From contig VAXU01000127.1 of assembly GCA_005885125.1 (NCBI GenBank), positions 1 through 36,302 of the forward strand: a DNA stretch of 36,302 bases, given 5' to 3'. The stretch's first letter is position 1. Each line of letters starts with the position of its first letter. The stretch comes from Actinomycetota bacterium. GTDB lineage: Bacteria; Actinomycetota; Thermoleophilia; Gaiellales; Gaiellaceae. The notes under the pieces were generated by a model, which saw only the letters and a program-made list of their open reading frames with translations, did no database searches and was not told where the DNA came from. Below are positions 21,706-23,369 of this stretch, piece by piece. The translations under genes were made by a program, and so were the position numbers.

Positions 21706-22140
21706 ATGGCCAAGTCCACCCTGTACCTCTTCGACGGCTACAACCTCCTGCACGCGGGCGCCTACGAGGACGCCCGCGAGCTTCGGGACACACTCGCGAG
21801 CTTCGTCGCGCTGAAAGGGGCCCGCGGCGTTCTCGTCTTCGACGGGGTAGGCGCGGACGAGACCCACGGGCCGCTCGAGATCCGCTTCGCCGAGCCCGCC
21901 GACACGCTCCTGGAGCGCCTCGCGGCCGAGAACCGCGACCGGCACCACGTCATCCTGGTCTCCTCGGACGTGGCCGTACGGGGCACGTCGGGTCAGGAGG
22001 TGCAGAAACTCTCCTCACGGACCTTCCTGGGCGACCTCGAGGCGGTCGAGCACAGCGAGGAAAAGCCTCAGCGCATCCGGGACCGCCTCGATGCCGCTAC
22101 GCGGGCAGCCTTGGAGCGAATGCGGCGCGGTGAGGACTGA
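21706..22140 (+). CDS. yacP: YacP/Rae1-like NYN-domain ribonuclease (144 aa)
   Basis: This is a small PIN-like NYN nuclease. LYLFDGYNLLHAG at the N-terminus carries the first catalytic Asp; VLVFDGVGAD, HVILVSSDVAVRG (second acidic site, SSD) and SSRTFLGDLE complete the pattern. The Bacillus homologue (Rae1) cuts mRNA at the ribosomal A site; the same role is inferred. Length is close to the family's. It starts at ATG 21706, 28 nt after the hairpin repeat. It is followed 1 nt later by the SOS-type box and then the sigma gene, as in Bacillus (yacP-sigH). Confidence 0.9.
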   Translation: MAKSTLYLFDGYNLLHAGAYEDARELRDTLASFVALKGARGVLVFDGVGADETHGPLEIRFAEPADTLLERLAAENRDRHHVILVSSDVAVRGTSGQEVQKLSSRTFLGDLEAVEHSEEKPQRIRDRLDAATRAALERMRRGED

Positions 22141-22141
22141 C

Positions 22142-22155
22142 CGAACATGTGTTCG
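22142..22155. promoter_or_regulatory. Candidate LexA (SOS) box, Gram-positive type
   Basis: CGAACATGTGTTCG matches every fixed or degenerate position of the Bacillus-type SOS consensus CGAAC-R-N-R-Y-GTT-Y-G, and also the inner part of the mycobacterial box. It begins 2 nt after the yacP stop and lies 27 nt upstream of the -35 of the sigma gene promoter. A site upstream of -35 is not the most usual place for a repressor, so either the box blocks another start or it acts in another way. Binding is inferred from the match. Confidence 0.6.
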
Positions 22156-22182
22156 TAGCATCCTGGGTCCACCGCAATAACC

Positions 22183-22211
22183 TTGTAAAGCCGGGCGGAC
22201 CTTGCTATCTT
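22183..22211 (+). promoter_or_regulatory. Promoter of the SigH-like sigma gene
   Basis: TTGTAA (-35, 22183-22188) and TATCTT (-10, 22206-22211) are separated by 17 nt, with an extended TG at 22203-22204. This is a good match to the housekeeping sigma-70 consensus. Transcription would start near 22218, leaving a leader of about 74 nt before ATG 22292. The local AT-rich stretch stands out in this GC-rich DNA. Confidence 0.6.
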
Positions 22212-22291
22212 CCCCTCAACCTTAGGGTGAGAGTTCGACGCCGGTGCCTGAGAACCGGCCGCCGAGCCGCCCACGAAGCCGGGGGACTCCG

Positions 22292-22948
22292 ATGGCCGCA
22301 CGGCCCGCGACCGCAGCGCAGAAGGCCCAGCGAGAGCTCGAAGACCTCCAGCTCGTTCTCCGCGCGCGCAACGGGGACGGCTCTGCTCTCGACGCACTGA
22401 TCCGCCGGTACACCGGCTTCGTCCGTCTGAAGGCGAGCTCGTACTTCCTGGCAGGCGGCGACTCCGAGGACCTGATCCAGGAGGGCCTGATCGGCCTCTA
22501 CAAGGCGGTGCGCGACTTCCGCGCGGACAAGGAGACCTCCTTCCGCAGCTTCGCCGAGCTCTGCGTCACGCGGCAGATCATCACCGCGATCAAGACGGCG
22601 ACCCGCTTCAAGCACGCGCCGCTCAACACCTATGTCTCGTTCAGTCACACGCCGGCCGGCCAGGACGCGGACAGCGAATGCACCCTCGGCGACGCGCTCC
22701 CGGGCCCGGGCGTCGACGAGCCGTCGGTCTGCGTGATCTCGACGGAGGAGCTCCAGAGCCTCGTCTTCACGCTGGGCACGGGCCTGTCGAAGCTCGAGGC
22801 CGACGCGCTTCGCCTCTACCTCGAGGGCTCGTCCTACGAGGAGATGGCCGAGGAGCTTGGCTGCGACACGAAGACGATCGACAACGCGCTGCAGCGCGTC
22901 AAGCGGAAGGTGCTGGCGCACCAGAAGACCCGCGAAGTTCTGCTCTGA
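22292..22948 (+). CDS. sigH: SigH/Spo0H-like RNA polymerase sigma factor (218 aa)
   Basis: This is a sigma-70-family factor of the sigma-H (Spo0H) type. Region 2 is ALIRRYTGFVRLKASSYFL followed by DSEDLIQEGLIGLYKAVRDF, the core-binding and -10 recognition helices. Region 4 is GLSKLEADALRLYLEGSSYE then MAEELGCDTKTIDNALQRVK, the -35 recognition helix-turn-helix. Starting at ATG 22292 gives 218 residues, the typical SigH length, with GGGGGA 5 nt upstream. GTG 22244 in the same frame is a possible longer start. Its place after yacP is the conserved one. It has its own promoter and lies downstream of a SOS-type box. The last 50 nt overlap a convergent endonuclease gene. Confidence 0.92.
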   Translation: MAARPATAAQKAQRELEDLQLVLRARNGDGSALDALIRRYTGFVRLKASSYFLAGGDSEDLIQEGLIGLYKAVRDFRADKETSFRSFAELCVTRQIITAIKTATRFKHAPLNTYVSFSHTPAGQDADSECTLGDALPGPGVDEPSVCVISTEELQSLVFTLGTGLSKLEADALRLYLEGSSYEEMAEELGCDTKTIDNALQRVKRKVLAHQKTREVLL

Positions 22949-23369
22949 CGCTCACTTGCCCAACTTCGTAGCGTGCGGCTTGGCGGATGAGCCTCCGCTG
23001 CCGGTTACGGGCAGGGTCAAGGCGGATCGACGCCTTTGTCTTTACGGGTACGTCCTCGATTGGCACGAGATAGACGATTCCCGTTTCGCGGCAGTAGACG
23101 CCGAAGTTCTCGATCTCCCCCTGATAGTCGAGTTTCCTCTTCTTGGGATTCGGGTGGTGGGCATAAGAGCTGCACGTGCTCCAAACCAGCGCACCGTTAT
23201 ATAGCCGGCCCGTCTTGCACTGCACTCGGGCGAGCGATTCGCCATCGTCGATCACAAGGTCGTAACGCGTGTTCTCGCCGAATGGGACGAGAACGGCGAG
23301 CCCAGCTTCCCTGAGCGCGAACATCACCGCGAGCTGTGTTCGATCGCCAACGTCCTTCGGATGCTCCAT
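22899..23369 (-). CDS. PD-(D/E)XK endonuclease, group-I-intron-associated type (156 aa)
   Basis: The protein has the pattern of the free-standing PDDEXK_5 family related to the homing endonuclease I-Ssp6803I. It shows an N-terminal helix GDRTQLAVMFALREAGLAV, then VPFGENTRYDLVIDD (E32, D37) and ARVQCKTGRL (Q50-x-K52), which supplies the E-D-QxK active site. HHPNPKK and EIENFGVYCRETGIVYLVP follow, as in relatives. It would cut double-stranded DNA; whether it is a homing enzyme or has been recruited for repair is open. It starts at ATG 23369. Its 3' end overlaps the convergent sigma gene by 50 nt, and its start is 76 nt from tRNA-Thr, which carries no intron. Confidence 0.82.
   Translation of the reverse strand: MEHPKDVGDRTQLAVMFALREAGLAVLVPFGENTRYDLVIDDGESLARVQCKTGRLYNGALVWSTCSSYAHHPNPKKRKLDYQGEIENFGVYCRETGIVYLVPIEDVPVKTKASIRLDPARNRQRRLIRQAARYEVGQVSVRAELRGSSGAPAPSA

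Follow-up and report, generated by a model that had tools for sequence, protein, structure and literature searches.

A predicted LexA operator upstream of the Spo0H-type sigma factor gene sigH in Gaiellaceae

The gene of the alternative sigma factor SigN (ZpdN) on the B. subtilis plasmid pBS32 is repressed by LexA and induced by mitomycin C (PMC6751061). In C. glutamicum, a putative SOS box overlaps the -10 element of promoter P4 of the ECF sigma factor gene sigH (PMC3489674). The SigG of M. tuberculosis is also induced by DNA damage and has been described as part of a RecA-independent response and not of the classical LexA/RecA response (PMC3776920). For LexA of Streptomyces venezuelae, the sections of the study drawn on here give the motif as tCGAAC-N4-GNNCGa and report a validated LexA box 162 bp before the start codon of recA (PMC9380542). 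The initial annotation of a 36,302-nucleotide stretch of Gaiellaceae DNA (contig VAXU01000127.1; hereafter the window) had put forward the link between a sigma factor and DNA damage as a new regulatory wiring. As LexA control of a sigma factor is already known from pBS32 SigN, and putatively from C. glutamicum sigH, that claim was given up for the kind of link itself; as far as the literature was searched, the novelty lies in the family of the targeted sigma factor, in the lineage and in the placement of the box upstream of the promoter. That literature yielded no account of an SOS regulon in Gaiella and none of LexA in Thermoleophilia.

The box at sigH and the SOS regulon of the host genome

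A pattern search of the window returned CGAACATGTGTTCG as its sole zero-mismatch CGAACNNNNGTTCG, located between yacP and a Spo0H-type sigH; its start is one base past the stop codon of yacP and 150 bp upstream of the ATG of sigH. The full match to the Gram-positive SOS consensus that had been claimed for this site was thus confirmed as exact. The claimed SigH-like nature of the downstream gene was also borne out, as its product scored 242.8 bits against the curated SigH family model NCBIfam NF006148 (cut-off 208) and is of the Spo0H/SigH type; against TIGR02859 it scored 233.1 bits, under the cut-off of 294.8. The ATG at 22292 was taken as the start of sigH because a gap of ~26 bp, found in seven congeners among the ten genus genomes aligned, separates it from the GTG at 22244, which was ruled out. 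An ORF with a PDDEXK_5 endonuclease domain (window 22899-23369, minus strand) is convergent with sigH and overlaps its 3' end. The genes for DisA and RadA are present in the same gene block as sigH, and their proximity had been read as a further link to DNA damage. The order clpC-radA-disA-...-rlmB-yacP-sigH is ancient and also found in Firmicutes, and the clpC-radA-disA ... yacP-sigH region of B. subtilis is the same gene neighbourhood as here. Given the age of this order and its occurrence in Firmicutes, the nearness of disA and radA was dismissed as evidence for a damage link.

The host assembly (2.83 Mb, 77% complete) encodes one clear LexA, which contains the PF01726 (LexA_DNA_bind) domain with an E value of 4e-25 and a Peptidase_S24 domain (Pfam), scores 224.4 bits with TIGR00498, and carries the AAGG, GDSM and VKR motifs of a self-cleaving repressor. 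The promoter of its gene contains CGAACACACGTTCG (start at 41 bp upstream of the ATG), which ruled out that the host genome uses another SOS motif. Furthermore, a perfect box was present at lexA in 31/31 Gaiellaceae genomes examined (the host and 30 others). The initial annotation had pointed to lexA and recA of the same genome for comparison; the agreement was complete for lexA, in the host as well as in its 30 relatives, and did not extend to recA. No perfect SOS box was found on the recA contig (C145, locus L013), and the best site in the 3.8-kb recA locus had one mismatch and was located inside recA itself. The recA gene is preceded there by cinA and a thpR-like gene, and no PafBC-like site (TNTCRGT..TANNNT) was found at recA. 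As its contig is without a perfect SOS box, the damage control of recA may differ in this host.

Pattern searches for the regulon gave 10 perfect sites in the whole host assembly, compared with 2 for the reversed control pattern. Judged by the flanking DNA, eight of these are located at lexA, sigH, dinB, uvrA and ssb, at genes for an imuB-like product and a DEDD exonuclease, and at a YneA-like LysM gene. The remaining two (L006 and L009) have centres that do not follow RNRY and look like chance matches. The L006 site (contig C101, 10812-10825) is CGAACCTGGGTTCG, about 30 bp ahead of a small ORF, which is itself followed by an ECF-like sigma gene; the match is probably due to chance given its non-RNRY centre. 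The small LysM protein (L002; contig C51, box at 2556-2569) scored 33 bits with the YneA model, for which the cut-off is 60, and is a probable SOS cell-division inhibitor in Gaiellaceae. In four congeners (G006, G007, G010 and G012), sigH was boxed in 4/4, and lexA, dinB, uvrA, ssb, imuB, the LysM gene and the exonuclease gene were each boxed in at least two, counts which rest on a subset of the box sites of these genomes. By every available sequence test, the palindrome is a LexA-type SOS box.

Promoter architecture and distribution of the box

Table 1. Features of the sigH upstream region and its flanking genes (window coordinates)
Feature	Position	Strand	Basis or remark
yacP-like NYN-domain gene	21706..22140	+	Pfam NYN_YacP; stop ends 1 bp before box
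LexA (SOS) box CGAACATGTGTTCG	22142..22155	+	exact motif match; lexA motif identical; family conservation
GGGTCCA..GCAA module between box and -35	22165..22177	+	genus and family alignments; tandem duplicate in genus g8
-35 hexamer TTGTAA	22183..22188	+	17-bp spacer to -10 in 74/74 genomes with the pair
GGACC, inverted arm to GGTCC of the module	22197..22201	+	conserved in alignments
Extended -10 TGC TATCTT (TGC 22203-22205, TATCTT 22206-22211)	22203..22211	+	family conservation
Palindrome-like element CTCAACCTTAGGGTGAG (CTCAACCTNAGGGTGAG), imperfect, over predicted transcription start	22215..22231	+	conservation upstream of sigH
sigH, Spo0H-type sigma factor, 218 aa	22292..22948	+	NF006148; Pfam Sigma70_r2 and Sigma70_r4_2; genus alignment for start

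The TTGTAA-17-TATCTT promoter begins 27 bp past the box in the window, and a TTGT[AG]/TGCTA pair was found at the corresponding place in 74/90 family genomes with invariant hexamer spacing. The pair in the window falls below the 9-of-12 threshold of the promoter scanner and was not listed by it. The box had been described as sitting just upstream of a good -35/-10 pair; the promoter is indeed present, but the box is not directly adjacent to it and is centred near -70, given a predicted transcription start near 22218. A promoter overlapping the box, with TAnCAT after the box as its -10, was not adopted, as no conserved -35 was found upstream of the box. A search for a terminator-like site between yacP and sigH found none.

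The conserved GGGTCCA..GCAA module is probably the site of another regulator. Its GGTCC and the GGACC form an inverted pair that flanks the -35 (window 22165-22201). Among the 43 genomes in which both the box and the promoter pair were found, 38 had a gap of 26-28 bp from the box to the -35. In the remaining five, which belong to genus g8, the gap was 55 bp and the module was doubled, with the end of the box still 10 bp before the outer GGTCCA. The distance of the box is therefore tied to the module and not to the promoter. One clade of genus g32 without the box (L027, L036 and L038) apparently has a doubled module as well. The element over the predicted transcription start has a similar sequence in 70/90 family genomes and looser counterparts before sigH class-wide, its sole perfect match in its own genome is at sigH, and it resembles an operator to which a dedicated regulator would bind.

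When the upstream DNA of 90 Gaiellaceae sigH genes was compared, 46 of them had the core GAACNNNNGTTC (GAACN4GTTC) at the corresponding position, and the 14-mer was perfect in 29. From the frequency of the core elsewhere in the same loci, which is one match per 244,170 positions, only ~0.04 matches were expected in total. The four centre bases, which had been excluded from the site search, followed the Gram-positive RNRY rule, with R at position 6 in 46/46 and Y at position 9 in 44/46. Within the genus, a perfect box was found in 10/10 members, though the DNA upstream of the box could not be aligned. The core box was absent at sigH in 44/90 family genomes, and several box-less clades retain the core promoter and sigH. 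The lexA promoters sampled from box-less clades kept a perfect box. As sigH without a box and lexA with a box occur in the same clades, sigH is an optional member of the SOS regulon. The conservation on which the initial proposal had been made to depend was thus complete in the genus and partial in the family, where several clades are without the box.

The comparison was extended to 40 sigH loci from elsewhere in the class. In the sister family of the same order, two genomes (G126 and G127) were boxed, one of them with an outer-base mismatch, and no box was found at the corresponding place in the other sampled sister-family genomes or in more distant families of the class. In a tree built from 100 sigH genes, the presence of the box required 12 changes compared with 33.7 in shuffles. 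This distribution suits an old site that was lost several times, on a tree which cannot separate gain from loss.

Proposed control of sigH and competing explanations

The site, the motif it shares with lexA, the regulon and the conservation were computed directly from the genomes, and they suggest that the 14-bp palindrome is likely a functional LexA operator that brings sigH into the Gaiellaceae SOS regulon. We infer from the same data that LexA binds the box, that damage induces sigH, and in what direction and by what manner of repression LexA acts. In the undamaged cell, LexA would occupy the box beside the GGGTCCA..GCAA module, some 70 bp ahead of the transcription start, and hold sigH down. 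Most likely, it would deny an activator, or the alpha subunits of RNA polymerase, access to the upstream part of the promoter, and it might also halt read-through from the rlmB-yacP operon. Upon DNA damage, activated RecA would promote the self-cleavage of LexA, the box would be vacated, and sigH would rise along with dinB, uvrA, the imuB-like gene, ssb and the YneA-like division inhibitor. The -70 position is outside the classical zone where LexA excludes RNA polymerase, though the recA box of S. venezuelae, at 162 bp from the start codon, has been validated (PMC9380542). Because the box is centred there, plain promoter occlusion appears to fit less well than interference with the GGGTCCA module or a block to read-through, and the latter is possible since the box directly follows yacP with no terminator-like site detected in between.

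The same position raises the question of whether LexA might act mainly as a roadblock against rlmB-yacP read-through, with the TTGTAA-TATCTT promoter little affected and only a modest change of sigH under SOS. A box immediately past the yacP stop, upstream of the promoter and near -70, would suit such a role, as would the lack of a detected terminator-like site. We nevertheless consider it rather unlikely, as the constant distance from the -35 (26-28 bp) and the outward shift of the box with the duplicated module both suggest coupling to the promoter architecture. A site that LexA binds with little effect on sigH and with no regulatory consequence would explain why the box is repeatedly absent in clades that retain sigH and the core promoter, and would agree with its distance from the promoter. 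Complete conservation in the genus next to unalignable upstream DNA, together with the fixed spacing and the RNRY centres, makes a tolerated site of this kind improbable.

The host genome has many copies of the motif with a single mismatch (357 compared with 134 for the reversed control), which could favour the view that the palindrome arose by chance or is bound by some unrelated factor. The excess of cores at a fixed place before sigH over the expected number and the identical motif at lexA in every genome examined argue strongly against both; chance was ruled out on these two grounds, and the two possibilities together are given hardly any weight. Thus, the predicted SOS control of sigH by LexA appears well supported but lineage-specific.

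SigH in B. subtilis functions at the entry into sporulation. For Gaiellaceae, the position of the box before sigH suggests that DNA damage probably helps to switch on a second-tier expression programme of SigH. It is conceivable, and proposed here only tentatively, that in much of Gaiellaceae and part of the sister family an entire transition-state programme of the Spo0H type is turned on by DNA damage, with LexA acting upstream on a multi-input sigH promoter; the outputs of such a programme could be, for example, competence, dormancy or stress survival. Genome-wide searches for Bacillus-type SigH promoters (AGGA-N-GAAT) gave 2 to 8 per genome, with none common to four congeners, and no such promoter was found at comEA-comEC in the genus. 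On these two results, a competence link was ruled out as a supported output. SigH drives competence genes in S. aureus (PMC3486894) and L. sakei (PMC3364868), and by analogy competence may serve as a lead only for Gaiellaceae. If the proposal is true, the SOS response would run as a cascade of two tiers, the second being a chromosomal sigma factor.

Comparison with known systems

The sigH product of Gaiellaceae belongs to the same protein family as Spo0H/SigH of Firmicutes, and we know of no LexA control of Spo0H in that phylum. If the predicted control is true, the SOS response is wired into a SigH-type sigma factor in abundant and hardly studied soil actinobacteria, which would offer an entry point to the roles of Spo0H-type sigma factors outside spore-formers, and the sister clades with and without the box would constitute a natural experiment.

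The LexA regulon of S. venezuelae, in the sections of that study drawn on here, resembles the one predicted for Gaiellaceae in the type of motif and in the overlapping targets lexA and uvrA, and differs from it in that recA is boxed in Streptomyces whereas the Gaiellaceae host recA is without a perfect box, and in that a sigH-type target is not named in those sections (PMC9380542). The SigG of M. tuberculosis shares with the proposed scheme the induction of a sigma factor by DNA damage, but has been described as part of a RecA-independent response (PMC3776920). The C. glutamicum sigH is alike in having a putative LexA box before an actinobacterial gene of the same name, whereas its product belongs to the ECF sigma factors, has an anti-sigma factor and is unrelated to Spo0H (PMC3489674). 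The pBS32 SigN is like Gaiellaceae SigH in being an alternative sigma factor whose gene is under LexA control, which is predicted in the present case. SigN is plasmid-borne, tied to cell death and positively autoregulated, as shown by experiment (PMC6751061), whereas the sigH of Gaiellaceae is a chromosomal, actinobacterial gene of the Spo0H type with its box upstream of the promoter, and its control by LexA is a prediction from sequence.
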